NCBI RefSeq assembly: GCF_002844195.1
Contig: NZ_PEND01000004.1
Coordinates: 434,001-498,000 of the forward strand
Direction: 5' to 3'
Length of the DNA stretch: 64,000 nucleotides
Source of the DNA: Halegenticoccus soli
GTDB taxonomy: Archaea > Halobacteriota > Halobacteria > Halobacteriales > Haloferacaceae
In this document: positions 34,639-60,534 of the stretch, piece by piece
How the letters are laid out: every line of letters begins with the position of its first letter
How positions within the stretch are numbered: the stretch's first letter is position 1
Notes under the pieces: generated by a model
What the model saw: only the letters and a program-made list of their open reading frames with translations
Told to the model about the DNA's origin: nothing
Database searches by the model: none
Position numbers and translations under genes: made by a program

Positions 34639-35979
34639 TCAGTCTCGCACGGCGGCGAGGGGGTCGACGAACCCGGAGCCGTAGTACGCCTTGTCGTAGC
34701 CCGCGGGAACCTCGGCCGCGCGTTCGAGCGCCGATTCGACCTGGTTCGCGTTGTAGCCGGGGTTGACCGACTTCACGAGCGCGGCGGCGCCGGCGACCTG
34801 CGGCGCGGCCATGCTCGTTCCGGCGGCCCAGCTGTAGTCGTACGCCACCCTCGCGACGGTTCCGTCGTCGTCGAATTCGGCCTCGGCGACGGTGCTGAGC
34901 ACGAGGTCGAGGTACCACGGGAGTTCGGACCCGATCGCGTCCAGGTACGCGTCGCCGCCGGGGGCCGCGAGGTCTATGGCGTTCGTCCCGTAGTTCGTGT
35001 AGAAGGCGGGGCTGTGGGCGGGTTCCTCGTCAGCCCCGGCGGCCGCGGCGTCCCACTCGAAGCCGATCGGGCCGGTCGCGCTGACGCTCAGCGCCTGCGC
35101 GGCCTCGTTCGGCAGGCTGACGAGGTTCTTGTCGTGCTGGAGATCGGCGGCGTCGTTGCCGGCGGCGACGACGAGCAGCGTCCCCTCGCGGTTCGCGTAG
35201 GTAGTCGTCCGGTTGAGCGCCTTGCCGTAGAACGAGCCGAGCTCCCGCCGCGGGAGCGGGTACGCGCCCAGGCTCATGTTGGCGACGTCGCAGTCGATCT
35301 CGGCGCTGTAGACGATCGCCGCGAGCACGTCGCCGAAGGTCGCGCCGCCCTCGCGGGAGAACACCCGGCAGTCGACGATCTCCGCCCCCGGCGCGGTTCC
35401 GACGACGCCGGCCCCGTTGCGGTCGTCGGCCGCGACGATCCCGGCGACGTGCGTGCCGTGGTACCCGGCGAACGGGCCGCCCGCGTCGTAGCCGTCGCCG
35501 GTGAAGTCCCGCGAGAGGTCGAGGTTCACCGCGCGTTCGAGGTCCGGGTGACCGGCCGCGACGCCCGAGTCGATGATCGACACGCGCGTTCCCTCGCCCC
35601 GGGTGATCTCGTGGACCTCGGGAATGCGCTGGACCTGTTTGTCCCACTGGAGGTCGTAGAGGGGTTCGTCGGTCGCGCCCCCGGCGGGAACGGCGTCGTT
35701 CGCGTCGGGGTCGTCGAGCCGCAGTTCGAGGTCGGGTTCGAACGACCGGAAGTCCCTCTTCACCGCGCTCGCCCGACCCTCGACGACGGCGAGGTCGACC
35801 GCCGAGAGGTCGTGGATCACCTCGTAGTCGCCGCGCCCCCCGTTCCGGCGGGACGCGCCGCTGGTGTCGACGACGAACCGGTCGGTGCGCTCCGCGGCGG
35901 CGACCGTCGATCCCGCCGCGATTCCCCCGATCACTCCGCCGCTCACCCTGAGAAACGTTCGCCTGGTCTGTCGAGGCAT
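34639..35979 (-). CDS. Tat-exported subtilisin-like serine protease (S8)
   Basis: Secreted halolysin-type protease, 446 residues. The start at ATG 35979 gives the Tat signal MPRQTRRTFLRVSGGVIGGIAAGSTVAAA. A prodomain of about 80 residues follows. The catalytic triad is Asp in VSIIDSGVAAGHPD, His in YHGTHVAGIVAA and Ser in AGTSMAAPQVAGAAAL; the oxyanion Asn is in VVAAGND. It lacks the C-terminal module found in the other large proteases at 48-58 kb. A TATA element (GATTATAC on -, about 36001-36010) sits 27 bases upstream, so the mRNA is leaderless. Confidence 0.92.
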   Translation of the reverse strand: MPRQTRRTFLRVSGGVIGGIAAGSTVAAAERTDRFVVDTSGASRRNGGRGDYEVIHDLSAVDLAVVEGRASAVKRDFRSFEPDLELRLDDPDANDAVPAGGATDEPLYDLQWDKQVQRIPEVHEITRGEGTRVSIIDSGVAAGHPDLERAVNLDLSRDFTGDGYDAGGPFAGYHGTHVAGIVAADDRNGAGVVGTAPGAEIVDCRVFSREGGATFGDVLAAIVYSAEIDCDVANMSLGAYPLPRRELGSFYGKALNRTTTYANREGTLLVVAAGNDAADLQHDKNLVSLPNEAAQALSVSATGPIGFEWDAAAAGADEEPAHSPAFYTNYGTNAIDLAAPGGDAYLDAIGSELPWYLDLVLSTVAEAEFDDDGTVARVAYDYSWAAGTSMAAPQVAGAAALVKSVNPGYNANQVESALERAAEVPAGYDKAYYGSGFVDPLAAVRD

Positions 35980-36000
35980 ACGATACGACAGCGCGTTCAC

Positions 36001-39039: not shown

Positions 39040-40162
39040 ATGGAACGAACGCGGAGAGACGCGCTGAAGCTCGGTGCGGGGACGATCGCGGCGGGGCTCG
39101 CCGGCTGTCTGGGATCGAGCGGTGAGATCCCCGGGGGCGGGGGATCCCGCGAAACCCCGGAAGCGCAGGCGTCGTTTTTCGTGCTGTACGACCTCGCCCG
39201 CCACGTGGCGGGCGGCGCGGCGACCGTCGAGAGCATCGTCCCGTTCGGGCAGCACAGCCACGGGTGGGAGCCGCCCGCGGACGTCCAGCGGACGGTGTTC
39301 GAGTCGGACGCGTTCGTTTACATGGGCGAGGGGTTCCAGCCGTGGGCCGACGACGTCGTCGAGAACCTCGAACGCGACGCGCCCGACGTGACCGTCGTCG
39401 AAGCGCGTCGCGGCATCGACCTCATCGAGGTCGCGGGGGAGGGCCACGACCACGGTCACGACCACTCCGGCGCGAGTGACCACGGCGACGAGGGCGGAAA
39501 CGGGACCGACGACAAACACGACGAGCACGGTCACGAAGCGAACGGAGGCGGCGGCGATCACGGTGGTCACGACGATCACGAAGACCACGGCAATCATGGC
39601 GACGAGCACGGCGACGATCACGGCGCTGAGGATCCGCACTTCTGGCTGGACCCGCGGCGGACGAAGCGCGCCGTGGCGAACGTCCGCGACGGATTCGTCG
39701 AGGCGGACGGCGACCGCGAGGAGACGTACGCGGACAACGCGGACGCCTACCGGGAGAAGCTCGACGACCTCGATGCGACCTTCGAGTCGGTGCTGTCGGA
39801 CCGGAGCCGCGACGTGGTGCTCGTCGCCGGGCACAACGCGTTCCAGTACCTCGGCCACCGGTACGGATTCGAGGTGCACGCGCTGACGGGGCTCGCTCCG
39901 GACTCGGAACCGAGCCCGAAGGACGTCAGGATGGCCCAGGGGGTCATCGAGGAACACGGCATCGAGCACGTCCTCGCCCCGGCGCTGGAGTCGGACCGGG
40001 CGGCGAAGCAGCTGGTCGCGGAGACCGACGCGAAGGAGGTACTGCCGATCACGCCGCTCGCCGGGCTGACCGAGGAGTGGCGGCGGAAGGACTGGGGGGT
40101 ATCTGGAGATCATGGGGGAGGTCAACCTCCCGTCGCTCCGGAAGGCGCTGGGGGCGGCGTGA
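39040..40162 (+). CDS. ZnuA-type metal-binding lipoprotein, 3' end shifted by one base
   Basis: Zn2+ (or Mn2+) ABC receptor of the SBP_bac_9 family. The Tat lipoprotein signal is RRDALKLGAGTIAAGLAGC. A ligand His lies in PFGQHSHGWEPP. The large His/Asp/Gly-rich loop at about residues 130-200 (GHDHGHDHSG onward) is the zinc loop. DPHFWLDP and VAGHNAFQYLGHRYG carry further ligands. After EEWRRKDWG the frame breaks at a run of six G (40094-40099). Reading it as five G gives YLEIMGEVNLPSLRKALGAA and a stop at 40160-40162, the normal ZnuA end. As sequenced, translation would run on into the next gene. No ZnuB or ZnuC is adjacent. Confidence 0.85.
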
Positions 40163-41361
40163 CGGCGAACGAGTCCGACTCGGCGGCGGCCGAAGACCCG
40201 CCCGGCGCGAACGCGGGCGACGCGGTCGGAACTGGCACGGCCGAGACCGACGCCGAGACCCTCGACGTGGCGGTGGTCGGCGCGGGCGCGGGGGTCGTCC
40301 TCCGCGACCTCGGGATCGACCGGTTCGCCCTGCTCGAACGCGACGAGGTCGGCGCGTCGTTCCGGCGGTGGCCCGGCGAGATGCGGTTCATCACGCCGTC
40401 GTTCCCGAGCAACAGCTTCGGGGCGCGCGACCTCAACGCGGTCACGCTCGACACCTCGCCTGCGTTCGCGCTCAACCGCGAGCACCCGACGGGCGACGAG
40501 TACGCCGAGTACCTCGAAGCGGTCGTCGAGTTCCGCGACGTGCCCGCGCGGACGGGGATCGACGTGCGCGACGTGGTGCCCGACGGCGACGGGTTCGCGC
40601 TCGAAACCTCCGCGGGGACGATCCGGAGCCGCTTCGTGATCTGGGCCGCGGGCCAGTTCCGGTACCCGAGGCGGTCGCCGTTTCCCGGGGCGGCCGCCTG
40701 CGTCCACAACGTCGATGTCGACTCGTGGCGGGCGTACGCGGACGCCTGCGACGACGAGCGCGCGGTTGTGATCGGCGGGGCCGAGAGCGGAATCGACGCG
40801 GCGCTGGCGCTGTCCGAGCGCGGCCTGCGCGTCGCCGTGATCGACGAGACCGGCCCCTGGCGGCTCCGGTCGCCCGATCCGAGCGAGGTCCTCTCTCCGT
40901 ACACGGCGGAGCGGCTGAACCGGGCGCTCGACGACGGCGCGGCGATCGACCTCGTCGCGGGGAAGCGTGCGACGCGGGTCGAGCGGACGGGGGAGGGGTA
41001 CGCGGTCCACACGGACGACGACGGGCGGTTCGTCACCGGGAATCGCCCCGTTCTGGCGACCGGTTTCGAGGGGAGCGTCGGACTCGTCGAGCGCCTGTTC
41101 GAGATCGAAGGCGGCTACCCGGCGCTCACGGACAGGGACGAGTCGACCGAGACGCGGGGGCTCTTTCTCGTCGGCCCCCACGTCCGTCACGACGGCCAGC
41201 AGTTCTGCTTCATCTACAAGTTCAGACAGCGGTTCGCCGTCGTGGCCGACGCGATCGCGGAACGACTCGGCGTCGACCGATCGCCGCTCTCGGAGTACCG
41301 GGAGAAGGGTATGTTCCTCGACGATCTGTCCTGTTGCGACCCGGAGCTCTGCGACTGCTGA
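40159..41361 (+). CDS. FAD/NAD(P)-binding oxidoreductase with shortened FAD motif
   Basis: A 400-residue flavoprotein of the monooxygenase/TrkA-like FAD family. It starts at GTG 40159, overlapping the restored znuA stop (GTGA). An acidic tail (about 1-35) precedes VAVVGAGAGVVLRDLG. The FAD loop is four to five residues shorter than the usual GxGxxG spacing: the first Gly to the strand-2 acidic residue is about 20 rather than about 24. The second motif VVIGGAESGIDAALAL (NADPH) is intact. The C-terminus is Cys-rich (DDLSCCDPELCDC). Its position between the zinc receptor and a FeoB-like permease suggests a redox role in metal uptake. Confidence 0.78.
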   Translation: MTANESDSAAAEDPPGANAGDAVGTGTAETDAETLDVAVVGAGAGVVLRDLGIDRFALLERDEVGASFRRWPGEMRFITPSFPSNSFGARDLNAVTLDTSPAFALNREHPTGDEYAEYLEAVVEFRDVPARTGIDVRDVVPDGDGFALETSAGTIRSRFVIWAAGQFRYPRRSPFPGAAACVHNVDVDSWRAYADACDDERAVVIGGAESGIDAALALSERGLRVAVIDETGPWRLRSPDPSEVLSPYTAERLNRALDDGAAIDLVAGKRATRVERTGEGYAVHTDDDGRFVTGNRPVLATGFEGSVGLVERLFEIEGGYPALTDRDESTETRGLFLVGPHVRHDGQQFCFIYKFRQRFAVVADAIAERLGVDRSPLSEYREKGMFLDDLSCCDPELCDC

Positions 41362-47013: not shown

Positions 47014-47336
47014 TGTTATAGATGAAGAAATATTTAATAATAATTATTATCCAGTTGGCCCTTCAGGACATTTTTCTGGTGTGATATATGTGATAATCAT
47101 TATTTATCCTTCGAATCGCGCGTCGCCGAGAAATATCGGGAGAAAATCATTTCGGCGCGCCCTCCGAGAGTCGTCCGCCCGAATCGCGGTTGTGATCGAG
47201 GGCCGGCGTCGGGATACCGTGGCGAGGTCGTCGTGAATTTCTCGAACCGGAGATAGTGCCGACGCCGGACATAGTGTCAATTAACCAAGTGTTTTTGGTC
47301 GTGGAGTTCCTTCTCTTCTCCGCGTCGTGTCTAACC
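47014..47336. promoter_or_regulatory. AT-rich divergent control region upstream of the cobW operon
   Basis: 323 bases without genes between cobW2 (-) and the DUF7282 gene (+). 47015-47110 is strikingly AT-rich against a very GC-rich background. It contains a perfect 14-base palindrome ATAATAATTATTAT (47037-47050), overlapping or next to the cobW2 TATA box, and a second inverted repeat ATAAT-C-ATTAT (47093-47103). A and T-rich palindromes of this kind are typical of metal-regulator operators. The right half is ordinary sequence, with a possible TATA near 47285-47300. Confidence 0.55.
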
Positions 47337-48314
47337 ATGAACAAGAGTAACGATAGTCGAGACGGTCGCGGTACGGAAGGAACCGGAACGGTCGACGAGC
47401 CCGTCGACTTCGGCCTCTCGCGGCGGGGGTTCCTCTCCGCGTCGGCGGTCGGCGTCGGCGCGCTCGGGCTGTCAGCCGTCGCTTCCCCCGCGGCGGCGCA
47501 GGGGGGTGACGGCAACGGCGAATCGGAGCCGTTCTCCGTCGTCGAGTTCACGAACCAACCGCTCGACGGACGATCCGTCGTCGTGGACGCCGCCCTGCTC
47601 TCCGAGGGCGGCTTCGTCACGATCCACGACGCCGGCCTGTTCGAGGGCGACGCGATCGGGAGCGTCGTCGGCGTCTCGGAGTTCCTCGACCCCGGCGTCC
47701 ACTACCTCGTGGAGGTGGAACTGACCGACGGCGCCGACCTGAGCGAGGGCCAGCCGCTCGTCGCGATGCCGCACCTCGACACCAACGGGAACGAGCGGTA
47801 CGACTTCGTCGAGACGGAGGGTCAGGAGGACGGCCCGTACGTCGAAGCCGGCCAGGCCGTCGTCGACCTCGCGCTGGTCGGCGCCGACGAGGACGGGACG
47901 GACCAGTTTGCGACGCTGGAGTTCTCGAACCAGCCCACGAACGGGTCGTCCGTCGTCGTGGACGCGGTCGCCCTGTCGGACGGCGGGTTCGTCGCCGTCC
48001 ACGACGCGAGCCTCCTCGAAGGGGACGTGATCGGGAGCGTCGTCGGCGTCTCGGAGTTCCTCGAACCGGGAATCCACTCCGGGGTGCAGGTGCCGCTGTT
48101 CGACGTGCCGGGCGCGAACTTCGGGACGCAGACGCTCGAAGGGACGCAGCCGCTCATCCCCATGCCGCACCTCGACACCAACGGGAACGAGCGGTACGAC
48201 TTCGTCGAGACGGAGGGCCAGGAGGACGGTCCATACGTCGAGGCCGGCCAGGCCGTCGTCGACCTCGGATTCGCGACGGTCGCCGGCGGCGACGGCGGAA
48301 ACGGCGGTTCCTGA
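47337..48314 (+). CDS. Tat-exported protein with two DUF7282-type repeats
   Basis: A 325-residue secreted protein. The Tat signal is SRRGFLSASAVGVGALGLSAVASPAAA (about residues 24-50). Two homologous repeats of about 125-130 residues follow, each beginning with a strand (VVEFTNQPLDGRSVVVDAA, TLEFSNQPTNGSSVVVDAV). Each contains EGGFVTIHDA or DGGFVAVHDA, then GDAIGSVVGVSEFL or GDVIGSVVGVSEFL, and ends MPHLDTNGNERYDFVETEG. The fold is probably a cell-surface beta-sandwich; the function is unknown. Start ATG 47337 was chosen because it yields a proper Tat n-region. The two repeats carry a 106-base near-identical stretch. Confidence 0.82.
   Translation: MNKSNDSRDGRGTEGTGTVDEPVDFGLSRRGFLSASAVGVGALGLSAVASPAAAQGGDGNGESEPFSVVEFTNQPLDGRSVVVDAALLSEGGFVTIHDAGLFEGDAIGSVVGVSEFLDPGVHYLVEVELTDGADLSEGQPLVAMPHLDTNGNERYDFVETEGQEDGPYVEAGQAVVDLALVGADEDGTDQFATLEFSNQPTNGSSVVVDAVALSDGGFVAVHDASLLEGDVIGSVVGVSEFLEPGIHSGVQVPLFDVPGANFGTQTLEGTQPLIPMPHLDTNGNERYDFVETEGQEDGPYVEAGQAVVDLGFATVAGGDGGNGGS
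47766..47871 (+). repeat. Direct repeat copy 1 (106 bp) in the DUF7282-type gene
   Basis: 96% identical (four differences in 106 bases by eye) to 48162-48267, offset 396 bases, which is 132 codons in frame. It encodes the C-terminal part of repeat 1. Confidence 0.85.
48162..48267 (+). repeat. Direct repeat copy 2 (106 bp) in the DUF7282-type gene
   Basis: Second copy of the unit at 47766-47871. The flanking parts of the two protein repeats have diverged much more, which suggests recent gene conversion or slippage confined to this segment. Confidence 0.85.
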
Positions 48315-48419: not shown

Positions 48420-50405
48420 CTATTCGTTCCCGTGCTCCCGAATTCTCCCGACGAGCCGGCGCGCCGCGTTTCTGAACCGGTACAGCGCGCCGCCGGTACC
48501 GGCGATCCCGACCGCGCCGAGCGCCCCGGAGTTGGCGCCGAGGACGACGTTCTCCTCGGTCGTCTCGGGCGCGGGCGTCCAGGTCTCGCCGCCGTCGAGG
48601 CTGTACTCGACCGGTCCGAAGGTGTACCGCCTCGAGGCGTCGAACCCGGAGGGTGCCTCGGCGAAGTACGTCAGCGTGTCGCCGCGGACGGGGCGGTCGA
48701 ACTCGACGCGCGTCGTTCCGCCCGCGGTTTCGGTGCTCACGCCCCCGCCGACGACCGTCCACTCGCTCGGCAGCCGATCGCGGACGCGGACGGGACGATC
48801 CGCCGCGACCGCGACGTCGACGCGGTTCGTCTGCCCGGCGACGAACGCCGACCCGTCGTCCTCGCGCTCCGCGATCACGTCCGCGCGCCGCCCGGTTTCG
48901 AACGGGACGTGCTCGTGGCGGATCGCGTAGACGCCCGAGTTGATGTCCGAGGCGAACGTGACGCCGCCGCGCTCGACGGCCGCCCACGTGAACGGCGCGG
49001 CGGTGTTCAGCCCCTCCATCTTCGACTCCTCCGGGACGTCCCGGTGCGGCAGGTAGTAGCCCTCCTCGTCGAGTTCCCAGCGGTCCCCCGTGCGGTCGAT
49101 CCGGAGGTAGCGCACGCCGCCGTGGTAGTGGGCGAGGTGGACCCACCCGCCCGCGGCCACGTCGAAGTTGTGCGGGCTGAGCGTGAAGTCGTCGAACGTC
49201 GCCTCCGACCGCCACTCCCAGACGTCGAGTTCGGCGAGGTTCGGCGACCCGTCGTAGCCGTCGTCGAGGCCGTCGGCGTCGAGGAGGTGGATCGTCCCGG
49301 TCGTCCCGTCGGCCCGACTCGGCGTCTCCTGGCCCGCCACGACGATCCGCTTGTCGCGGGTGAGCGCCGGTGCCGGTTCGGCGTAGTGGGCCGCGCCCAT
49401 TTCGAACCGACCGATCTCCTCGACGTCCGTCGGATCCGAGAGGTCCAGCACGCGCAGACCCGCGTCCCAGTACGACAGGTAGCCGTACGGCCTCCCCGTC
49501 CGCGGGTCGTCCTGGACGACGATGTCGTGGACGTACGCGAGGCCGCCGTCGAGGTCCCCGTCGGCCAGATTCCCGTCCGGCGTCCACTTGTTGACGGGGA
49601 CCAACGCGCCCGTCGTCCGGTCGAACTCCAGCACGTACAACCCCGCGGTTCCGTCGTTCAGGTCCTTCACCGCGAAGACGTACTCGCCGCCGTCGATCCG
49701 GTGGTAGCAGGCGTTGTGCACGCCGGTCGTCCAGCCGTCGTACGAGCCGACGACGCGGGGGGCGTCGGGGTCCGAAACGTCGACGGCGACGACGGCCCCG
49801 GCGCTCGGGCTCGCGGACTCGCCCTCGACCCCCGGCGTCGGGTCCGTCTCCTCGAACAGCGCCGTGTAGGGCTGTTTCGACAGGAAGACGTAGTCGCCGT
49901 CGTCGCTGACTTTGACGTCCATCACCGCCGACGCGGGGTTGTCGTTTCGGACGAACGAGCGAACCCGGAGCTCGGCGTCCCTGAGCTCAGAAAGCGTCCG
50001 CGCGCCGTTGAACTCGCTCACGTCGAGGATCGCCATCCCGCGGTCGTTCGTCGGGTCGTCCGACGAGAAGATCCCGACGTAGGCGTAGTCGCCGACCGCC
50101 CGGATCTCCGTGATCGCCCCGTAGTGCGGTTCGTCGGGGCGCCCCGACTCGCTCGACGGGCCCGCGCCGCCGAGGCTGTGGTAGTCGAGGAGCTCCGTTC
50201 CCTCGGCGCGCCGGTGCTGGTTCGGGTCCGAGTGGTCGTGGTCGCCTCCGCCGGCCGATGCGTCGCCGTCGTCGCCGAACCGGTGCGCGCTCGCCGTCCC
50301 CGCCCCGAGGGTCGCAGCGCCGCCGGCGACGGCGGCCGCGCGGACGAACCCGCGCCTGCTCACCCGCCGTCGAGCCCCCGCCCCGGATCGGCGGTCGGCG
50401 CTCAC
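48420..50405 (-). CDS. Tat-exported LVIVD-type beta-propeller protein with shared C-terminal module
   Basis: A 661-residue secreted protein. The Tat signal is SRRGFVRAAAVAGGAATLGAGTASA. A His/Asp-rich linker (GGGDHDHSDPNQHRR) follows. A propeller of repeated blades runs from about 80 to 510 (VGDYAYVGIFSSDD, MDVKVSDDGDYVFLSKQ, GYLSYWDAGLRVLDLSDPTDVEEIGRF), as in LVIVD proteins. Residues about 535-640 form the module REDDGSAFVAGQTNRVDVAV to YTFGPVEYSLDGGETWTP. It ends in a hydrophobic stretch and basic tail (ALGAVGIAGTGGALYRFRNAARRLVGRIRE), a probable membrane anchor. The GTG start at 50405 overlaps the M14 gene stop by four bases. Confidence 0.82.
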   Translation of the reverse strand: MSADRRSGAGARRRVSRRGFVRAAAVAGGAATLGAGTASAHRFGDDGDASAGGGDHDHSDPNQHRRAEGTELLDYHSLGGAGPSSESGRPDEPHYGAITEIRAVGDYAYVGIFSSDDPTNDRGMAILDVSEFNGARTLSELRDAELRVRSFVRNDNPASAVMDVKVSDDGDYVFLSKQPYTALFEETDPTPGVEGESASPSAGAVVAVDVSDPDAPRVVGSYDGWTTGVHNACYHRIDGGEYVFAVKDLNDGTAGLYVLEFDRTTGALVPVNKWTPDGNLADGDLDGGLAYVHDIVVQDDPRTGRPYGYLSYWDAGLRVLDLSDPTDVEEIGRFEMGAAHYAEPAPALTRDKRIVVAGQETPSRADGTTGTIHLLDADGLDDGYDGSPNLAELDVWEWRSEATFDDFTLSPHNFDVAAGGWVHLAHYHGGVRYLRIDRTGDRWELDEEGYYLPHRDVPEESKMEGLNTAAPFTWAAVERGGVTFASDINSGVYAIRHEHVPFETGRRADVIAEREDDGSAFVAGQTNRVDVAVAADRPVRVRDRLPSEWTVVGGGVSTETAGGTTRVEFDRPVRGDTLTYFAEAPSGFDASRRYTFGPVEYSLDGGETWTPAPETTEENVVLGANSGALGAVGIAGTGGALYRFRNAARRLVGRIREHGNE

Positions 50406-53400
50406 GTGCTCACCCCGGCGACCGCGTTCTCGTCCTCCGTCCCGTCGACGGGTGTCCACCGGTCGCCGTCGACGGAGACCTCGACCGGGCCGAACTCGTA
50501 CACGTTCGTCTCGGTCAGCCCCTCCGGGGTCTCGACGAGATACGAGTACCGCGCCGTCTCGTCGGCCGCCGCCGTCCCGAAGTAGACGTACTGGACGTCG
50601 CCCGCGTCCTCGATGCGCGTCACGTCGTCGGAGTGCTCGGTCAGGACGGTCCACTCCGCCGGCACGGCGTCGCGGACGGCCGCGTCCAGCGACGGCGTCA
50701 CGGCCAGCTCGACGCGGTTCGTCTGTCCGCCGGTGAACGTCGAGCCGTCGTCCTCGCGGGAGCCGTCGACCGTGAACGGCGGCTCTTCGCCCTCGACTTC
50801 GAACGGGCCGCCGCCGAACGCGCGCTCGCCGTCCGCGGTCCGGCGCACCTGCCGGAACCCGAGCGCGTTCGTCAGCGCCAGGTAGCCGAGGAACGACGTC
50901 GTGTAGTCGAGCAGGCCGAACGGGTGGAGGTTCGCCTGCGACGCGGGCGGCAGGAGGCCCCCGATCACGTGAATGCCGGTGCCGTCGCTCTCGCTCCGGG
51001 TGAGGGATCCGGCGGAGACCGCCCCGCCCGTCGTGGCGGCGATCGACGGCACCGCGTCGCCGGACGCCGCCGCGAGCCTGAACGCCTCCTCGTCGACGAC
51101 CGACATCGGGGCCTCGTTGCCCGTCGAGTAGCCGAGGGGCGCGATCTTCCAGAGCGCCTTCTGGACCGGCCGGGCGTCTTCGAGCAGCGGGTGGTCCAGG
51201 TCCTTCTCCCCGAGGTGGGCGACGTAGAACCGCTCTTCGGTCACGTCCCCGGGTGAGACCGCGTTCGCGAGGTCGTTCTCCATCGCCCCGAGGAGCCGGA
51301 CGCCGGCGTCCGTCAGCACGAGGTTCCCGCCGTCCCCGACGAAGGCGTCGAGGGCCGCGACGTACTCGCCGTCGTGCGCGGCGTCGTCGTGGATCAGGAC
51401 CGCGTTGTCGTAGTCGGAGAGCGCGCCCGCCTTCACCTCGTCGACGGTGACTGGATCGACCGCCCCGCCGTCGGCCACGGCGTCGGCGTAGTCCTCGAAG
51501 AAGCGCAGCGGCGTCACCTCGTAGGGCCGCTGTTCGTACCCGAGCGCCTCCTCGGGGTCGGGGTGGGGTCCGGAGGACGCGAGCGTGGCGACCCGCACGT
51601 CGACCTGTTCGGCGGCGTCGATCAGGTTCTCGACGCGGACGGTCCACGTCCCGGCCTCGGGCTCGCGGACGGTCCACTCGGGACCGCTGCAGCACCGCCC
51701 TCCGGCGGCGTGCTCCCCCGCGTCGGGGTCGAACGCTCTCGCCACGTCGCCGCTCGGCGCGACGAGTTCCGTCCGCAGGAGCGCCTCGTGGGCGTGGACG
51801 TGGACCGAGAGGGTGTGGAGCCCCCCGGCGACCTCGAACGCCGTCGAGAGCGCTCCGAGGGCCTCGACGCGCTCGGACTGCACCGACGCGCTCGTCGTCG
51901 TCTCGGTCTCCGCGCCGGGGAACGTCGCCTCGATCTCGTACTCCGAGGCCGCGTTCGCCCAGGTCTCGACGACGAACGCGTACTCGCCCTCCGCGTCGAG
52001 GCTCGTCGCGATCGTCTCGGGGTTGTTCGCCGTCTCGGCCGCCGCGATCCGGTCGCCCGCGGGGTCCTCCAGGTAGAATTCGAGGTCCTGCCCGTCGGGC
52101 GTCCACGACAGCGACGCCTCGACGCGGGTCGGCGGCTCGGCGAACTGATCCGTGTGGAACGTGTGCTCCGCTCGCTCCTCGGCCCCCGTGACGCCGGGGC
52201 CGATGAGCCCGCCGTAGGTGAACGTCGGCCCGTCGCTCGACGCGAACGAGAGGTCCTCCGAGGAGCGGGTGAGCGAGTCGGTGACGACGTAGGCGGTCGA
52301 TTCGCCGCCCGTCTCGACGGCGGCCTCGAACTCGTCGTCGGTGTTCGGCGTGTCGCTGTTCCGCACCGCGAAGTCGGCGATGGTCCGGACGGCCGTCACG
52401 TAGCCCGTCACCTGCATCTCGACGAGTTCGGGGTTGAAGGCGTTCGACCCCGTCATGTGCGAGTAGGCCATCTCGAAGTCCATCGTCGTCATCCCGAGCC
52501 CGCCGAGCTCCTCGGGGTGGGCCATCCAGTCGCCCATCGCCCCCGAGACGGTGTAGCCGATGGTGTCCCAGATGGTGCTGTAGTCGTACGCCTGCTCCGG
52601 GAGCGTGCCGAAGCCGAGCGGTGCGGGGTTGAATCCGCCGGTGATCTCCTCCTGGAAGTCCGCGGCGGTCACCCACGTCGAGAGCGCCTCCTCCAGCGTC
52701 TCGTCGATGACGCGGTTCATCCCGTACAGCTCGTGGAGCGCGCGGACGTCGAACTGGTCCTGGCTTATGAGCCCCAGCACGAACTCCTTCGAGTTGAGCA
52801 TCCCGTGGAGGTCCGCGCCGTAGTTCAGGTTCTCGTAGCCGCGGAAGTGCTCGACGATCGCCAGCGCGTCCGTCACTCGTTCGAGGGATCGGTCGGCGGG
52901 GTCGTCCGGCTCGCCCGGGTAGTGGGCGGGGGAGATCCAGCCCACGGTCGGGTACTGCCGGTTGGTGTCGTACACCCCCGCGTTCCCCCGCTCGTAGAAG
53001 GGGACGACGGGGACGCCCTCGTCCGGGCCGAGCAGCTGCCACCCGCTCTCGTACTGGGGGTGCTTTGCGACCCAGCCGTCGGGGTTCGTGTAGCAGAAGA
53101 TCAGCACGACGTCGTCGAGCAGCCGCTCGATCTCGGGATCCTCGCCCCGGAGCAGGCGCTCGACGTACCGCGAGCCGGCCTCCGCGCCGGCGCGTTCGAG
53201 CCCGTGCAGCGAGAGGCTGTAGAACACCTTCTCCTTCTCGCGGAAGGCGTCGGCGTCGTCGACGTCGTTCGTCACCTCGGCGACGTAGACGCCCTTCGGA
53301 TCGGGCCGCGCGGAGAGCTCGTTGTAGTGCCCGGGGCTCCTCCCGATGGAGTACACCCGGAGGCGGTCGCCGTGCTCCGATTCGAGGCGCTTCAGCCCGT

Positions 53401-53872
53401 CGATCAGCTGCTCGTAGTCGACGAAGTCGACGCTCCGCTCCGGTTCGGGGAACACCCCGAAGGGGTAGTAGCCGAGCCGCCAGAACGGGTTCGAACCGGG
53501 CGAGTGCGACAGCTCCTCCGCGGTCGGGATGTCGGCGGCCGCCTCCGCTTCGGTCGCCGTCAACCGGGCGTACCCGGCCGGGCGGGGCTCGGTCGTCGTC
53601 ACCGCGTTCGGAACCAGGGCTTCGAACTCCGAGAGCCCCGACTCGTCGGCGAAGGTGACGAGCGTCGGCACGGCGAAGTCCGCGGGCGTGTGGTTGACGA
53701 CATACTCGTACTCCGCCGTCATCCGCTCTGAGGACACGTCCGCCGCGGCGTTTCCGGGGAGCGCGAGCGCCCCGGCGGTCGCCGCCGCGAGGCGGACGAA
53801 GTCGCGCCTGTCAATGTCTACCTCGGAGAACCGGTCTGTGCGTCCGTCTGTGTCGTTCGGTCCGTGTGTCAT
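50402..53872 (-). CDS. Tat-exported M14 zinc carboxypeptidase, multidomain
   Basis: An 1156-residue secreted peptidase. The Tat signal is DRRDFVRLAAATAGALALPGNAAA. The M14 catalytic domain (about 155-500) has YSLSLHGLERAGAEA (HxxE zinc ligands), a third His in NYGADLHGM, and a catalytic Glu candidate in MDFEMAYSHMTG. A PPC-like beta domain (VEASLSWTPDGQDLEFYLEDPAGD) follows. A long region after residue ~700 resembles a class I glutamine-amidotransferase-like or ThuA fold (AALDAFVGDGGNLVLTDAG). The last approximately 115 residues are the module REDDGSTFTGGQTNRVELAV to YEFGPVEVSVDGDRW. It overlaps the propeller gene and is 57 bases after the 472-residue subtilase gene, so an operon is likely. 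Confidence 0.86.
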   Translation of the reverse strand: MTHGPNDTDGRTDRFSEVDIDRRDFVRLAAATAGALALPGNAAADVSSERMTAEYEYVVNHTPADFAVPTLVTFADESGLSEFEALVPNAVTTTEPRPAGYARLTATEAEAAADIPTAEELSHSPGSNPFWRLGYYPFGVFPEPERSVDFVDYEQLIDGLKRLESEHGDRLRVYSIGRSPGHYNELSARPDPKGVYVAEVTNDVDDADAFREKEKVFYSLSLHGLERAGAEAGSRYVERLLRGEDPEIERLLDDVVLIFCYTNPDGWVAKHPQYESGWQLLGPDEGVPVVPFYERGNAGVYDTNRQYPTVGWISPAHYPGEPDDPADRSLERVTDALAIVEHFRGYENLNYGADLHGMLNSKEFVLGLISQDQFDVRALHELYGMNRVIDETLEEALSTWVTAADFQEEITGGFNPAPLGFGTLPEQAYDYSTIWDTIGYTVSGAMGDWMAHPEELGGLGMTTMDFEMAYSHMTGSNAFNPELVEMQVTGYVTAVRTIADFAVRNSDTPNTDDEFEAAVETGGESTAYVVTDSLTRSSEDLSFASSDGPTFTYGGLIGPGVTGAEERAEHTFHTDQFAEPPTRVEASLSWTPDGQDLEFYLEDPAGDRIAAAETANNPETIATSLDAEGEYAFVVETWANAASEYEIEATFPGAETETTTSASVQSERVEALGALSTAFEVAGGLHTLSVHVHAHEALLRTELVAPSGDVARAFDPDAGEHAAGGRCCSGPEWTVREPEAGTWTVRVENLIDAAEQVDVRVATLASSGPHPDPEEALGYEQRPYEVTPLRFFEDYADAVADGGAVDPVTVDEVKAGALSDYDNAVLIHDDAAHDGEYVAALDAFVGDGGNLVLTDAGVRLLGAMENDLANAVSPGDVTEERFYVAHLGEKDLDHPLLEDARPVQKALWKIAPLGYSTGNEAPMSVVDEEAFRLAAASGDAVPSIAATTGGAVSAGSLTRSESDGTGIHVIGGLLPPASQANLHPFGLLDYTTSFLGYLALTNALGFRQVRRTADGERAFGGGPFEVEGEEPPFTVDGSREDDGSTFTGGQTNRVELAVTPSLDAAVRDAVPAEWTVLTEHSDDVTRIEDAGDVQYVYFGTAAADETARYSYLVETPEGLTETNVYEFGPVEVSVDGDRWTPVDGTEDENAVAGVST
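50578..50677. repeat. Module repeat copy 1 (100 bp, in M14 gene)
   Basis: 95% identical (five differences by eye) to 55748-55847. It encodes, on the - strand, VPAEWTVLTEHSDDV and GDVQYVYF of the shared C-terminal module. Confidence 0.85.
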
Positions 53873-53929
53873 CCTTCCGAAATGGGTGTCGGGTGTGGTC
53901 GCGTTCGCGCGTCGTTCGTGCGGGCGGGT

Positions 53930-55348
53930 TCAGTCCGCGAGCGTCACGTCGTCGAAGCCGGCGAGGTTCCCCGCCTCCGCGCGCTCGACGGCGCCGACGG
54001 CGTCCACGAAGCCGGCGCCGACGCTGGCGGGCTCGTACTCGTCGCGGGCGTCGTACGCCTCGGCCTCGACCGTGTTGAGCACGTCGAGGGGGTCGGGGAA
54101 CGATCCGTGCGACTGCCGGTAGGCGTCGACGACGAGCGTCGCGATTCCGCTCGCGTGCGGGCAGGCCATGCTCGTTCCGCTTATCGTCGCGTAGTAGAGG
54201 CGGCCGTCGTCGGCGCTCTGCGCCTGCAGCGGGTCGTCCGGCGACATCGTGCTCACGATGTCGCTGCCCGGCGCGCCGACGCCCGGCCGGTAGACCCCGA
54301 GGGGATCGCTCCGCTCGCCGGTCGCGTAATACTCCTCCAGGTTGCGGTAGGCGGTCTCGCGGTCGTGGTTGCTCCCGTCGTTCCGGCCGCGCGAGGAGAA
54401 GTCGGTGACGGACTTGTCGTCCCGCGTCGCCGCGACGCCGAGGACGTGCGGGGCCTTCGCGTAGTCGTTGAGGGTCCCGTAGTCGGGACCGGAGTTGCCG
54501 GCGGCGAACACCGGGAGGATGCCCGCCTCCATCGCGTGCCACGTCGCGACGTTGAGCGCGCCGTCGGGGTCGAAGTCCTCGCCGCTCGACGCGCCGTAGG
54601 AGTTCGAGACGACCTGGTACGTCCCCCCGTCGCCGTTCGCGAGCACGTGGTCGTACGCCGCGACGGCCTTCAGGATCGTGATCGTCAGGCCGGTCGAGTA
54701 GCTCGTGAGCGTCGCGTCGGGGGCCATCCCCCGGAACCGCCCGTCGCTCGCGCTCCCGTCGCCGCCGATCGTGCCGGAGCAGTGGGTCCCGTGGCCGATG
54801 TCGTCGGTGTCGAGCGGGCCGGCCTCGACCCACAGCGTCGGATCGCCGAGGGGGTTGCCCGCCCACTGGTAGTTCGCGTCGATCGCCTCTGCGAGGTCCG
54901 GGTGGTCGCCGTCGACGCCGCTGTCGATGACGACCGCGTGCGCCGACTCGCCGGTGTAGCCGTAGTCCGACTGGACCGTCTCGACGCCGGTCACCTCGCG
55001 GCCGTCGTCGTTGAAGTACTCCAGTTCGTCGTTTGCCTGCACCCGGCGGACCTCGGGCCACCCGGCGACGGTTTCGATCTGCGGGCCGGTGAGCTTCGCG
55101 TAGCCGATCGGCAGCACCTCGAACGCGAGGTACCCCTCGTCGAGGTCGAGCTCGCCGAGCCTGTCCACGTCGTCGTTGGACGCGAAGACGACGAGCGCCT
55201 CCTGGAGCGCGTCGCTCGCGGTGTCGAGGGTGTCGTCGACTACGCCGGAGAGCGTCGCGGCGCTCGCGGGGCCGGCCAGGGGGACGAGCGAGGCCGCGCC
55301 GGTCGCTTTGAGTACGGTTCGTCTCGTGAACTGCGTGCGGTCTGTCAT
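53930..55348 (-). CDS. Tat-exported subtilisin-like serine protease (S8), 472 residues
   Basis: Secreted protease. The Tat signal is TRRTVLKATGAASLVPLAGPASA. An inhibitor-I9-like prodomain spans about 45-115. The catalytic domain has Asp in AVVIDSGVDGDHPD, His in GHGTHCSGTIGG, oxyanion Asn in FAAGNSGPDYG, and Ser in SGTSMACPHASGIATL. An insert of about 35 residues (DRETAYRNLEEYYATGERSDPLG) sits after SSRGRNDG. It ends soon after the catalytic domain (AGNLAGFDDVTLAD) and is the only large protease of this block without the shared C-terminal module. Confidence 0.92.
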   Translation of the reverse strand: MTDRTQFTRRTVLKATGAASLVPLAGPASAATLSGVVDDTLDTASDALQEALVVFASNDDVDRLGELDLDEGYLAFEVLPIGYAKLTGPQIETVAGWPEVRRVQANDELEYFNDDGREVTGVETVQSDYGYTGESAHAVVIDSGVDGDHPDLAEAIDANYQWAGNPLGDPTLWVEAGPLDTDDIGHGTHCSGTIGGDGSASDGRFRGMAPDATLTSYSTGLTITILKAVAAYDHVLANGDGGTYQVVSNSYGASSGEDFDPDGALNVATWHAMEAGILPVFAAGNSGPDYGTLNDYAKAPHVLGVAATRDDKSVTDFSSRGRNDGSNHDRETAYRNLEEYYATGERSDPLGVYRPGVGAPGSDIVSTMSPDDPLQAQSADDGRLYYATISGTSMACPHASGIATLVVDAYRQSHGSFPDPLDVLNTVEAEAYDARDEYEPASVGAGFVDAVGAVERAEAGNLAGFDDVTLAD

Positions 55349-55571
55349 TCGTGTGGTGTGTGGGTTTTCGGTTGCGCGTCGGTGCGATCCGCGGTGCGGT
55401 TCGCGGTGCGACGCGGTTCGATTCGCCGCGCGGGCCGGCCCGCGCGGTCGGGTCGTGCGGTCGAGTCGCCGGTGGCGGAGCGCCGTCGGGGGCGGAGCGC
55501 ATCGGTCGATCCGTTCCCCGCCCGATCTGCCGACTCGTCATCGCCGACGACGGCCGGCGGCGTGGCCGCGA
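55349..55571. other. Intergenic region between the two subtilases
   Basis: 223 bases, unusually GC-rich, with short imperfect repeats of GCGGTGCG and CGCGGTTCG. No convincing TATA box or gene is seen. It may be simply the 3' end of the larger subtilase transcript plus a weak promoter for the smaller. Confidence 0.4.
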
Positions 55572-58361
55572 CTACGTGCTCTGGCCGAGCACGACGTTCG
55601 CGTCGCTCGTGCCGTCGAGCTGGACCCAGGTCTCGCCGCCGTCGGCCGAGGCCGCGAGCGGGCCGAAGACGTACTCGCCGCTCTCCTCGATCGAGTCCGG
55701 AGCCTCGGCGAAGTAGGTCGCCGAAAGCGCGTCGGCGGGTCCCGCCTCGAAGTAGACGTACTGGACGTCGCCCGCGTCCTCGACGCGCGAGACGTCGTCT
55801 GAGTGCTCGGTCAGGACGGTCCACTCCGCCGGCACGACGTCGCGGACCTCGACGGCCTCGGTCGCCTCGACGGAGACGTCGATCCGGTTCGTCTGCCCGC
55901 CGGTGAAGACGGAGGCGTCGTCCTCGCGGGTCCCGGACGCCAGGAATCCCCGCGTCTCCTCGACGGTCAGGTCGAGGTGGACCTGCACGTCGTAGCCGTT
56001 GACCACGCCGGGCACGTCGACCAGCTTCGCGACGACGGCGTACGCGCCGCCCTCGGTCGCGAAGGAGAGCGAGCCCTCCCCGGCGAGCGCCCGGGTCCGC
56101 GCGACGACGTTCGGCTCGCCGTGTTCCGCCGGCGCTTCGAGGTCGTAGACGAACAGGTCGACGTGCGGGTCGCCCTCGGCGGCCCCTTTGTTCGCGCCGG
56201 AGAGGTGGCTGACCGAGACGTCGACGCCGTAGACGCCGGCGTCGGCCTCGACGTAGCCCGCGACGGCCCGCTCGTCCTCGGGGACGTTCAGGCCGACGAC
56301 GCCGCGGGTCGCCTCGCCGATCGGAAGCGCCCGCGAGACGGCGTCGACCGCCGCGCCGGGGTTCACCCGACCGTACCCCTCGTAGGGGTCGCGGGCGCCG
56401 AAGTCGTACGTCGGGGCGTGGGCGCGGTGGTACGGCGCGGCGGTGAACGCCGTCTCCGTCGCCGTGGCGAGGAGCACCTGCTTGAACCGGAGCGCGTCCT
56501 CGAGGCCGGCCTCGGCGGGCTCGGGCAGCGCGACGCTCGCCGGCGCGTCCTCCTCCATCGCCTGCGCGAGGAGGTTCGCCGCGCCCGCGACGTAGGGCGC
56601 GGCCATGCTCGTGCCGGCCTTGCCCGTGTAGTCGCGGATCGGCGGCTGCTCGCCCTCGGGCGCGTCCGGGTCGCCGTTCTCGGCGGCGCGCGCGAGGTCC
56701 GTCACCGTGCCGCCCGGCGCGGTCACGTCGGGCTTCCTGTACGCCGTCTCCGTGTCCTCGTCGTACGCCGCGAGGCCGCCGCTGGAGTAGGAGGCGATCC
56801 CGTCGAGCGGGCCGGTGGCGACGACCGACACGGCCTCGTCGGCGAGCGCCGGGCCGCCGGAGTTGGCCGGGGTCGCGCTGTTGCCCGCCGACGCCGACAA
56901 CAGAATGCCCGCCGAGGCGATGTCCTTCACGAGCGAGGGGTCGGAGGCGAGCAGGCCGCCCGCCGCGCCGAGCGGCGCGCCGCCGACGTAGCCCCACGAC
57001 ATGTTGACCGTCCGGAGGTTGAACCGCGAGGCGAACTCGTCGGCGTAATCCGCGAGGTCCTGCGTCGCGCCGCTGAGCCCCTGGAGGCCGACGATCCCGG
57101 CGTTCGGAGCCAGCCCCGCGTGGACGCTCGCGTCGCCGTCCGCGGTTCGGTCGCCGACGGTCTCGTCCTCGCGGTAGAACGCGCCGACGCTCACGGTCTC
57201 GACGCGGGCGGCGGTCAGGATCTCCCCGTCGTACGGCGTGACGTGGACGGCGTACGTCGCCTCGCCCGACTCGTGGACGGTCGGCGCGTCGACGACGTTG
57301 TTGTCCCACTCGCTCGTGTCGTCGACCCCGACGGTGGAGGCCGCCAGCTCCTCGCCGTCGGGGCCCTCGATGCTGATCTCGATGAAGTCGCCGTACGCCG
57401 AGGCGTAGACGCCCGTGTCGGCCCGCGCGGTCACCTCGTAGGTCAGCGCGTCGCCGAGCGCGAGCGTCGTCCGCGGGTCGTCCTCCGTCACGGTCGACGG
57501 GTCGATCGCGCTCGCCCGGCCGCTGCCGGCCATGATCGACGAGACGTGCGTCCCGTGGCCGTTGCCGTCCCTGGGCTCGTCGTACCCGCCGTAACGGTCG
57601 CTCTCGCTGTACCAGCCGACGGTCTTGACCGCGTCCGGTCGGACCGTCCCGCCGGTTCCGTCGAACACGTCGCCCGAGAACTCGGTCACGGAGCCCTCGT
57701 ACCGGTAGTAGCTCGCGGCGATCTCGTAGCCCGTCGCCAGCGAGGCGTACGTCTCGACGACGAACGCGTACGTCTCGCCGCCTTCGACGTCGACCTGCAG
57801 GGTCTCCGGCATCTCGGCGGTGGCGGACGTGGCGACCCGCTCGCCCGTGTCGTCCTCGACGTAGAACTCCAGGTCGTTCACGTCGCCGACCGACCACGAC
57901 AGCTCCGCCCGCACCTCGTCGGCGGACGCGGGGGCGGTGAACTCGTGGCGGCGCACGTCCGGCGTCGCGAACGTCCCCGGGCCGATCGTCCCGGAGAACG
58001 ACTCGGACTCGTCGAGTTCGGTCCGGTCGACGGCGTCCGCCGTATCCCTCGTCAGCACCAGTTCGCCCCCGCGGGTGACGGCGCGGACCCCGTTCCACGG
58101 CCCGAGGTCGGGGTGCCGCGAATCGACCCCGGTGTCGGTGAGCGCGACCGTCCGATCGATTCGGCCGCGGTAGCCGCGATCCCACGCGTGTCGCGCCTCC
58201 CGGACGCGCCAGTTCAGGAACGCCTCGTCCGTCGTCGCCGCACCCTGTGCCCCGCCCGGCACGCCGACGCCGAGGAGCCCCGCCCCGGCGACGGCTCCGG
58301 TCGCCCGAAGGAACGTCCGACGGGAGGTCCCGTCGGGCGCGTCTCTGTCATCCTTTCGCAT
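55572..58361 (-). CDS. Tat-exported large subtilisin-like protease (S8) with shared C-terminal module
   Basis: A 929-residue secreted protease. The Tat signal is SRRTFLRATGAVAGAGLLGVGVPGGAQGA. Triad: Asp in ALTDTGVDSRHPDLG, His in GHGTHVSSIMAG, Ser in GKAGTSMAAPYVAGAANLL; Asn in ASAGNSATP. Between Asp and His sits an insert of about 120 residues with a PPC-like domain (VRAELSWSVGDVNDLEFYVEDDTGE). A second beta insert follows His. After the catalytic domain comes another beta domain (about 680-800). The module REDDASVFTGGQTNRIDVSV to YVFGPLAASADGGETW forms the last approximately 115 residues. There is no obvious prodomain. The upstream palindrome at 58401-58416 may regulate it. Confidence 0.88.
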   Translation of the reverse strand: MRKDDRDAPDGTSRRTFLRATGAVAGAGLLGVGVPGGAQGAATTDEAFLNWRVREARHAWDRGYRGRIDRTVALTDTGVDSRHPDLGPWNGVRAVTRGGELVLTRDTADAVDRTELDESESFSGTIGPGTFATPDVRRHEFTAPASADEVRAELSWSVGDVNDLEFYVEDDTGERVATSATAEMPETLQVDVEGGETYAFVVETYASLATGYEIAASYYRYEGSVTEFSGDVFDGTGGTVRPDAVKTVGWYSESDRYGGYDEPRDGNGHGTHVSSIMAGSGRASAIDPSTVTEDDPRTTLALGDALTYEVTARADTGVYASAYGDFIEISIEGPDGEELAASTVGVDDTSEWDNNVVDAPTVHESGEATYAVHVTPYDGEILTAARVETVSVGAFYREDETVGDRTADGDASVHAGLAPNAGIVGLQGLSGATQDLADYADEFASRFNLRTVNMSWGYVGGAPLGAAGGLLASDPSLVKDIASAGILLSASAGNSATPANSGGPALADEAVSVVATGPLDGIASYSSGGLAAYDEDTETAYRKPDVTAPGGTVTDLARAAENGDPDAPEGEQPPIRDYTGKAGTSMAAPYVAGAANLLAQAMEEDAPASVALPEPAEAGLEDALRFKQVLLATATETAFTAAPYHRAHAPTYDFGARDPYEGYGRVNPGAAVDAVSRALPIGEATRGVVGLNVPEDERAVAGYVEADAGVYGVDVSVSHLSGANKGAAEGDPHVDLFVYDLEAPAEHGEPNVVARTRALAGEGSLSFATEGGAYAVVAKLVDVPGVVNGYDVQVHLDLTVEETRGFLASGTREDDASVFTGGQTNRIDVSVEATEAVEVRDVVPAEWTVLTEHSDDVSRVEDAGDVQYVYFEAGPADALSATYFAEAPDSIEESGEYVFGPLAASADGGETWVQLDGTSDANVVLGQST
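55748..55847. repeat. Module repeat copy 2 (100 bp, in large subtilase gene)
   Basis: Second copy of 50578-50677, encoding the same part of the C-terminal module on the - strand. Sequence identity falls off sharply on both sides. Confidence 0.85.
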
Positions 58362-58400: not shown

Positions 58401-58416
58401 ACCTAACCGGTTAGGT
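58401..58416. promoter_or_regulatory. Perfect 16-bp palindrome upstream of the large subtilase
   Basis: ACCTAACCGGTTAGGT is a perfect palindrome 40-55 bases before the ATG at 58361. It lies upstream of the likely TATA/BRE (CTTTTCTAC on -, about 58386-58394), a position where archaeal activators bind. The half-site order differs from the iron operators. Confidence 0.5.
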
Positions 58417-58548: not shown

Positions 58549-60534
58549 CTACTCCTCGGGTTCGGCGTCGCCCTCGAAGAACGCGCGCAGCAGCTTGTTC
58601 TGGACGCGGCGGATGTGCTCGTGGAACGTCGGCGCGGAGATGTCGAGCGAGTCGGCGATCTCCTCGGCGGTGCTGCCCCGCGGCCACTCGAAGTAGCCGG
58701 CGAGGTACGCCGTCTCGAGCACCTCCCGCTGGCGCTCCGTGAGGGCGTCGTCGAGCGCGTTCCGGAACTCCAACCCGCGGGCGCTCGTGCGCTCGCGCTC
58801 GCGCTGGGCGAGAAGCTCCGCGCTCGGGTACCGCCCCCGGACGGCCTCGATGACCGTCCGGACGTCCGCCCGCTGGGGGAGTTCGATGCGGGTTTCGCCC
58901 GCGCCGCCCTCGGCGGAGGCGCGGCGGAGGACGCCCCCGTGGTCGGCCACCAGCGAGGCGATAGACGCGTCGGGCGTCGTCACTCTGACGACGCTCGCCC
59001 CGTCGTACTCGGCGACGAGCGCCGCCTCGCCGCCCCGCTCGCGCGCGAGATCGATCACCGCCTCTGCCGGGCCGCCCTCCACGGAGAGGAACTCGGCCAG
59101 CGAGCCGTCGGCCCGCTCGACGGCGCCCTCCAGCGACACGGCGCAGTTGGCCGCAGCCGAGGCCTCGACGAAGAACGGGCCGACGTCCGGGAAGCCCACG
59201 CTCAGCTCGATGACGGCGTCGCTCACGAGCGCGCGTCGCTGTTCGACCGCGCTGATCGCGTAGGCGATCGTCTCGCCGAGCTCCGCCAGCACCGCCCGTT
59301 CGGTCTCGTCGAAGGCGTTCGGCCGCGGCGCGTACACGCAGAGGACGCCGTACGTCGCGTCGCGGTACTCGAGGGGGATCGCGGCCGCCGATCGGTAGCC
59401 GCGTTCGAGCGCCGCCTCGCGCCACGGTTCGGACGCCGGGTCGTCCGCGATGTTCTGCGCGACGAGGACGGCCCTCTTCTCGATCGCGGTCGCGGCCGTC
59501 ACGCTGCCGTTCCCGACGGGTTCGACGACCGACCGCTCGTCGAGGTATCCCTCCTCGACGCCCGCCCACGCGCGCGGGTCGACCCGCTCGCCGGTGAAGT
59601 CGAGTTCGCCGATCCACGCGAACCGGTACAGCCCCTCGTCGGCGAGGTGCTCGCAGACCGCCCGTTCGATCTCCTCGCGCGTGGACGCTCGGACGAGCGC
59701 CTCGTTCACGTCGCGGATGACCGCGTTGATGTGGTTCAGCGTCTCCAGCCGCTCGGCCTGCCGTTCGAGCGCGCGCTCGCGGCGCTTGCGCTCCGTGATG
59801 TCGCGGCCGATCCCGCAGATGGCGATCGGTTCGCCGGCCTCGTCCCTGAGGAGCGACCCCGTGAACTCGTAGGGGATGCGCTCGCCGTCCGTGGTGAGTA
59901 TGTCGGCCTGCGTCTGCGCCTGCCCCTCCGACACGGCCCGGGCGATCGCCGCCGTGATCGGTTCCGCGTCCTCCCGCGCGACGAAGTCCGTCGGCGACAT
60001 CCCGGCGATGGCGTCGTCGCCGTACCCCGTGACCGCCGTCAGGCGCTCGTTCCAGCGGAGGAAGTTCCCCTCCAGGTCGAACACGAAGAAGATGTCCGTC
60101 AGCGTGTCCAGGGCAGACCCCACGAGGTCGGTCTCGCCGGGGAGGGTGCGCTCCGACGCGTAGGAGTCGACGGTGTGGCGGAGCACCGCGGCGAGTTCGA
60201 GCGCGACGTCGTCGGCGTCGCTCCCGCCCCGACGGACGCAGCGGTCTGCGCCGGCGTCGAGCGCCCTCGCGGCCTCATCGCCCGTGCGGTGAAGCACCGC
60301 GACTGTCAGCGACGACCGGCGGTCGCGGAGCGATTCGACGGTCGCGAGCCCGGCGGCGTCCAGCAGTTCGTCGCCGACGACGACGGCGTCCGTCCCGGAA
60401 TTCAACCGCTCGACCGCCTCCGTCGCCGTCCCGACGGACGTCACGTCGAGCCCGTGATCGCGCGCGAGAGACGCACCGAGCCGGTCGAGCCACTCGTCCT
60501 CGCCGACGACCAACACGTCGAGGGGCTCCTGCAT
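58549..60534 (-). CDS. Bacterio-opsin-activator-like regulator (receiver-like, PAS, GAF, HTH_10)
   Basis: A 661-residue cytosolic transcription regulator. Domains: receiver-like (about 5-115), PAS (about 130-245, with FFVFDLEGNFLRWNERLTAVTGY and ICGIGRDITERKRRE), GAF (about 275-420), bacterioopsin-activator GAF-like domain (about 430-590), and HTH_10 (about 605-655, TERQREVLETAYLAGYFEWPRGSTAEEIADSL). The receiver has AVVVGDELLDAAG, where the phosphoacceptor Asp appears replaced by Gly, so it is probably not phosphorylated. ATG 60534 fits a TATA (GCTTAAG, about 60557-60563) 27 bases upstream. It likely senses redox, light or small molecules and regulates genes nearby. Confidence 0.9.
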   Translation of the reverse strand: MQEPLDVLVVGEDEWLDRLGASLARDHGLDVTSVGTATEAVERLNSGTDAVVVGDELLDAAGLATVESLRDRRSSLTVAVLHRTGDEAARALDAGADRCVRRGGSDADDVALELAAVLRHTVDSYASERTLPGETDLVGSALDTLTDIFFVFDLEGNFLRWNERLTAVTGYGDDAIAGMSPTDFVAREDAEPITAAIARAVSEGQAQTQADILTTDGERIPYEFTGSLLRDEAGEPIAICGIGRDITERKRRERALERQAERLETLNHINAVIRDVNEALVRASTREEIERAVCEHLADEGLYRFAWIGELDFTGERVDPRAWAGVEEGYLDERSVVEPVGNGSVTAATAIEKRAVLVAQNIADDPASEPWREAALERGYRSAAAIPLEYRDATYGVLCVYAPRPNAFDETERAVLAELGETIAYAISAVEQRRALVSDAVIELSVGFPDVGPFFVEASAAANCAVSLEGAVERADGSLAEFLSVEGGPAEAVIDLARERGGEAALVAEYDGASVVRVTTPDASIASLVADHGGVLRRASAEGGAGETRIELPQRADVRTVIEAVRGRYPSAELLAQRERERTSARGLEFRNALDDALTERQREVLETAYLAGYFEWPRGSTAEEIADSLDISAPTFHEHIRRVQNKLLRAFFEGDAEPEE

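Follow-up and report, generated by a model that had tools for sequence, protein, structure and literature searches.

Sequence analysis of a conserved haloarchaeal locus of Tat-signal peptidases and an LVIVD propeller that carries an undescribed domain family

Attachment of proteins to the haloarchaeal cell surface is known mainly to proceed through archaeosortase A (ArtA) lipidation, by way of lipoproteins, or by transmembrane anchors. In the type IX secretion system (T9SS) of Bacteroidota, the C-terminal domain (CTD) is one Ig-like domain borne at the C terminus of unrelated secreted peptidases and other cargo. Three characterised proteins are also relevant to the locus described here. HVO_0405, an archaeosortase A substrate with an LVIVD domain, is processed at the haloarchaeal surface (PMC7157517). 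The C-terminal extension of halolysin SptA serves stability and substrate binding (PMC3158780), and the isopeptide bond of a characterised CLIPPER domain (formerly DUF11) confers thermal and proteolytic resistance (PMC12617251).

The locus lies in a 64,000-nucleotide stretch of Halegenticoccus soli DNA, hereafter the window. Inspection of the open reading frames gave four consecutive minus-strand genes in the order S8a-S8b-M14-propeller (Table 1), with the strands, lengths and N-terminal Tat signals that a sequence-only reading of this DNA had given them; the signals are of the RR type, and a lipobox is absent from all four proteins. The intergenic gaps are 223 bp (S8a-S8b) and 57 bp (S8b-M14), and the GTG start of the propeller gene overlaps the M14 stop as GTGA. 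Pfam searches assigned S8a and S8b to S8 (the two matches having E-values of 9e-31 and 3e-33), M14 to the M14 family (7e-12), and the propeller to LVIVD (31.4 bits, cut-off 20.2), the last scoring under the cut-off for choice-of-anchor B (TIGR04312; 24.5 bits, cut-off 100). Catalytic residues were located in S8a (D76/H269/S585) and S8b (D142/H186/S393), as was the HxxE...H zinc site of M14 (H223 and E226, within HGLE at 223, and H356). The middle domain of M14 (residues 652-1032; 50777-51919, minus strand) is conserved, lacks a Pfam match, and is also present in M14 paralogues that lack the module described below.

Table 1. Positions in the window of the genes, domains and other features discussed in the text.
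Feature	Coordinates	Strand	Description
S8a	55572..58361	-	929 aa; Tat signal; subtilase; PPC-like insert; C-terminal module
S8b	53930..55348	-	472 aa; Tat signal; subtilase; no module, no PPC insert
M14	50402..53872	-	1156 aa; Tat signal; zinc carboxypeptidase; PPC-like domain, middle domain, C-terminal module
Propeller	48420..50405	-	661 aa; Tat signal; LVIVD beta-propeller; module and hydrophobic C-terminal tail
Module copy 1	55575..55946	-	S8a residues 806-929
Module copy 2	50405..50776	-	M14 residues 1033-1156
Module copy 3	48528..48884	-	Propeller residues 508-626
Propeller tail	48423..48527	-	Residues 627-661; weakly hydrophobic Gly/Ala-rich stretch, then Arg-rich end
PPC-like domain of S8a	57696..58055	-	Residues 103-222, between catalytic Asp and His
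PPC-like domain of M14	51920..52273	-	Residues 534-651, after the catalytic domain
Putative gene-conversion tract, S8a side	55749..55844	-	Matches its M14 counterpart at 91/96 nt
Putative gene-conversion tract, M14 side	50579..50674	-	Counterpart of the S8a tract
Regulator	58549..60534	-	661 aa; receiver-like/PAS/GAF/BAT/HTH_10; upstream of S8a, same strand; absent from the sequence-only reading
Palindrome CCTAACCGGTTAGG	58402..58415		Perfect, 14-bp; S8a upstream region

Several other genes of the window were recorded. A Tat-signal protein with two DUF7282 domains (47256-48314, plus strand) is convergent to the block, and a further Tat-type subtilase of 453 aa, without the module, is encoded at 34639-36000 (minus strand). 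The 773-aa open reading frame at 39040-41361 (plus strand) looks by eye like a metal-binding solute-binding protein joined to a flavin-type oxidoreductase, a possible gene fusion. No peptide transporter was seen adjoining the block.

A module of about 120 aa is common to S8a, M14 and the propeller, and BLASTP confirmed that the 472-residue subtilase lacks it. The pairwise identities are 56% for S8a and M14 (E 3e-34), 48% for S8a and the propeller (E 4e-23), and 42% for M14 and the propeller (E 2e-18), values that place the likeness beyond chance. The module had been described as the end of all three proteins, which holds for S8a and M14 but not for the propeller, where a 35-residue tail follows it. 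A fourth copy in the same genome belongs to a metallophosphoesterase encoded elsewhere, beside a PhoD phosphatase. Conservation reaches about 95% or higher at, among other positions, R7, D9, D10, F14, T15, G17, Q18 and T19, as well as D36, P39, W42, G95, P96 and V119 (Arg7 and Asp36 are conserved at 96% among 128 modules), and the terminal strand keeps the pattern NxVxGxxT. The module has no family match in Pfam or NCBIfam and no sequence match among PDB chains, and a description of it was not found in the open-access literature that was searched. It is thus a sizeable, unannotated and so far undescribed domain family.

An AlphaFold2 model of the module, built with 39 sequences, is a confident beta-sandwich (mean pLDDT 93, pTM 0.86). 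Its best Foldseek match is 9ifr, a CLIPPER structure (E 5e-6, TM 0.63, 14% identity), and further matches are integrin, cohesin and alpha-2-macroglobulin receptor-binding domains. By hhalign, the module profile is colinear with haloarchaeal DUF11 over 105 columns (probability 86%, pairwise P 6e-7) and aligns over 79 columns with tandem DUF11/bMG10-like domains of other archaea (probability 96%). Nevertheless, Pfam PF01345 (DUF11) was not matched above its cut-off: the S8a module gave 0 families, and 2 of 36 modules gave weak DUF11 matches under the Pfam thresholds (best E 0.009). A conserved lysine is also missing, Lys reaching at most 10% in any column of the 128 modules; without this counterpart a CLIPPER-type isopeptide cross-link in the module is ruled out. 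Because the fold and profile match and the lysine does not, we regard the module as a divergent relative of the DUF11/CLIPPER fold that is not a member by covalent bond. As modelled, it is a beta-sandwich of Ig-like type, specific to haloarchaea and akin to surface domains of the DUF11/CLIPPER kind. Tandem DUF11/bMG10-like repeats, distant relatives of the module, were seen at a locus where a neighbouring gene ends in an EF-hand/dockerin-like region.

Within Halobacteria, 40 of 394 species (21 of 87 genera) carry the module, a single genome holding at most 11 copies. When all loci are pooled, 160 genes (129 distinct), all from Halobacteria, bear exactly one copy each. One conserved module pattern, scanned against 84,980 species, returned haloarchaea only, with no Haloferax locus among them, and the phylum-wide profile search gave outside Halobacteria only weak matches of 24-41 bits, the one examined being tandem DUF11/bMG10-like. 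A scan of viral contigs gave no relative, and a viral origin was therefore set aside. The partners are S8a (43), the propeller (23), S8b in a PPC-containing form (22), M14 (20), S15 X-Pro dipeptidyl peptidases (10), and phosphoesterases of the purple-acid or calcineurin-like kind (6); judged by these families they are a scavenging set of peptidases and phosphoesterases. S8b lacks the module in Halegenticoccus, though its relatives in other genomes have both module and PPC insert. An RR motif is present in at least 105 of the 117 module proteins with a usable N terminus, and a lipobox in none. The tail beyond the module measures 0-6 residues; longer ones are found in most propellers (31-61) and in a small number of outlying S8a proteins (12-41). 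Plasmid-borne module proteins were also found, annotated merely as S8 or M14 peptidases. Among other arrangements, a 269-aa Tat-type protein (L107:4810-5616) consists of a short region without a family match plus the module; five loci hold tandem duplicated S8a or M14 genes with the module in both copies; and at two loci (and a third) from MAGs of Halobacteriales, several LVIVD propellers stand in tandem, the majority of them bearing the module.

The block recurs in other genera and families, having been seen in Halegenticoccus, Natronococcus, Haladaptatus, Halocatena and several further families. S8b, M14 or the propeller lies within four genes of S8a at no fewer than 25 of 39 distinct S8a loci, and a relative of the HTH_10 regulator, in several genera, at no fewer than 14 of the 39, both figures being lower bounds because contig ends truncate part of the loci. 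The order is regulator-S8a-S8b-M14 in the sister species Halegenticoccus tardaugens, propeller-regulator-S8a-S8b-M14 in Natronococcus amylolyticus, S8a-S8b-propeller-M14 in genome G294, and regulator-S8a-S8b-S8b-propeller in G345; S8a stands together with M14 in G401 and Halocatena, and S8a-M14 is on a plasmid in Haladaptatus halobius. Half of what the sequence-only reading had named as counter-evidence is present: the module occurs on unrelated secreted proteins (S15 peptidases, phosphoesterases), but its neighbourhood is conserved. The block is accordingly a genuine conserved locus, and the domain family that it carries is undescribed. Haloarchaea have many HTH_10 regulators, and the regulator's role at the block is for this reason inferred from adjacency. 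Half-sites of the palindrome CCTAACCGGTTAGG are shared with H. tardaugens, whereas no other genus has them paired; a search for an operator before S8a thus gave the palindrome in Halegenticoccus only.

The modules of neighbouring genes appear to have exchanged sequence. S8a and M14 module DNA is 95% identical in a 96-nt tract and 65% identical outside it (Fisher p 7e-10, which is indicative, the tract having been picked after looking and neighbouring bases not being independent). The M14 orthologue of H. tardaugens has 74% identity in the tract, and in N. amylolyticus the S8a and M14 modules are 97% identical over a 20-codon stretch. Gene conversion between S8a and M14 modules is our reading of these high-identity tracts. 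In a module tree, partner labels change 21 times, where 7 is the minimum and shuffled labels average 75, and at several points M14 modules cluster with those of S8a or the propeller, although single forks are unsure given the short alignment. Modules would thus mostly follow partner class, with repeated swaps that chiefly involve M14 modules. Such exchange suggests that modules within a locus can stand in for each other, which would be expected if they shared a single ligand.

S8a and M14 share a second, PPC-like domain of about 119 aa (39% identity, E 3e-16 by BLASTP, aligning S8a 103-218 with M14 534-651) that is absent from the sequence-only reading. Residues 582-635 of M14 match the PPC family weakly, below the Pfam cut-off (E 0.017), and the shared insert aligns weakly to the C-terminal domain of 9ues.

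The predicted propeller model is all-beta and propeller-like, though a PDB sequence search gave marginal matches and a fold search generic propellers at low TM. Across 12 propellers with 41-51% identity to that of the block, nine histidine residues do not vary, and a metal-binding or enzymatic propeller is therefore possible. In most propellers that have the module, a candidate membrane tail follows it, and it is this tail, not the module, that is the candidate membrane anchor. PGF-CTERM, the mark of ArtA substrates (PGF motif, transmembrane helix and basic end), gave no family match, and the tails lack PGF.

We propose that the block would be a regulated extracellular-proteolysis locus. The S8a and S8b endopeptidases and the M14 carboxypeptidase, presumably exported folded by Tat, would break external protein down into peptides and amino acids, probably for nutrition, and M14 and the exported LVIVD propeller probably share one mRNA. 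The module would hold these exo-hydrolases and the propellers on the cell surface, at the S-layer, a surface glycan or another module carrier, with one common ligand for the interchangeable modules of neighbours. Most likely it is a non-catalytic, portable domain that serves in retention or interaction, and to this we give an even chance. A surface-attachment or recognition role, as first suggested, fits the C-terminal placement on exported proteins only and the adhesin/cohesin-like predicted fold. Against the proposal stand the lack of the module from S8b in Halegenticoccus, although relatives of S8b have it, and the lack of a visible peptide transporter beside the block. Note that retention is not demonstrably needed, because module-lacking M14 paralogues end after the middle domain without an alternative anchor. 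For the same reason, the module as a stand-in for another C-terminal anchor was rejected. A folding, stability or substrate-binding role would, moreover, yield an identical distribution, and the SptA extension does exactly that (PMC3158780). The module may accordingly be an ordinary accessory domain with no sorting role that helps Tat-folded enzymes survive or grip substrates at high salt, as the SptA precedent, the resistance conferred by the CLIPPER isopeptide (PMC12617251) and the preponderance of peptidases among carriers would suggest. We consider this possible but rather unlikely, since LVIVD propellers and phosphoesterases, which have no substrate in common with proteases, bear the module too, since it lacks the conserved lysine and hence the CLIPPER cross-link, and since it occurs in S8a and M14 beside a PPC-like domain.

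The sequence-only reading had instead made the propeller a scaffold or receptor. Applied to the proteins as analysed here, modules would pair with one another or with the propeller, and the propeller, anchored by its tail, would gather endo- and exopeptidases into a surface complex. The tails of most module propellers, the overlap of the propeller and M14 genes, and the clustering of M14 with propeller modules in G294, G401 and Halocatena are consistent with this. We nevertheless judge it improbable, because a propeller of this family is absent from 13 of 36 good module-bearing genomes and from H. tardaugens, which has three module enzymes, and because Natronococcus propellers have the module without a tail. 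In G341, moreover, S8b and a propeller with a similar hydrophobic tail are adjacent and a second LVIVD gene is present, yet the module is nowhere in the genome, so the subtilase-propeller pairing is independent of the module. This co-occurrence rules out the propeller as universal receptor. Least probable, and in our view very much so, is that the module works like the T9SS CTD, as a genuine signal for export or sorting at the C terminus that dedicated machinery recognises and may cleave. The near-strict C-terminal place, single copy, conserved terminal strand, unrelated cargo that includes peptidases, and the like use of the Ig-like CTD would all suit such a signal; against it, module proteins already have Tat signals, T9SS sorting families are unmatched, no candidate gene for such machinery recurs at every locus, and residues follow the module in most propellers. 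A more far-reaching reading, which we regard as doubtful, would have the module serve haloarchaea as a sorting or docking domain at the C terminus, bound by a dedicated putative receptor. Tat-exported exo-enzymes would then have a common surface address, in a non-covalent, enzyme-gathering system unlike archaeosortase lipidation.

The analysis names a sizeable unannotated domain family. If retention is indeed its role, a portable C-terminal domain that unrelated exported hydrolases share, and that neighbours exchange by gene conversion, would hold enzymes to the archaeal surface in a different manner, and the module could be used as a tag for enzyme display at high salt.

Comparison with known systems places the module closest to DUF11/CLIPPER (PF01345), with which it shares a CnaA-like beta-sandwich and a D-x-V-P motif. 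DUF11/CLIPPER domains form tandem stalk repeats, whereas the module is single and C-terminal, and the Lys-Asn isopeptide bond with catalytic Asp found in CLIPPER (though not universally in the family) has no lysine counterpart in the module. The type IX secretion CTD is likewise a single C-terminal Ig-like domain on unrelated secreted cargo; it differs in having no sequence match, its sorting families being absent among the module matches, and the module carriers are archaeal, have Tat signals and lack known machinery. Halolysin SptA, like S8a, is a haloarchaeal subtilase with a C-terminal non-catalytic beta domain (PMC3158780), but its extension is of a different family and the module sits on several enzyme classes; it is the PPC-like insert of S8a and M14 that may be of the SptA extension/PPC type. 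HVO_0405 and the block propeller are both LVIVD proteins, and the latter, without PGF-CTERM, has the module and a weakly hydrophobic tail in its place.
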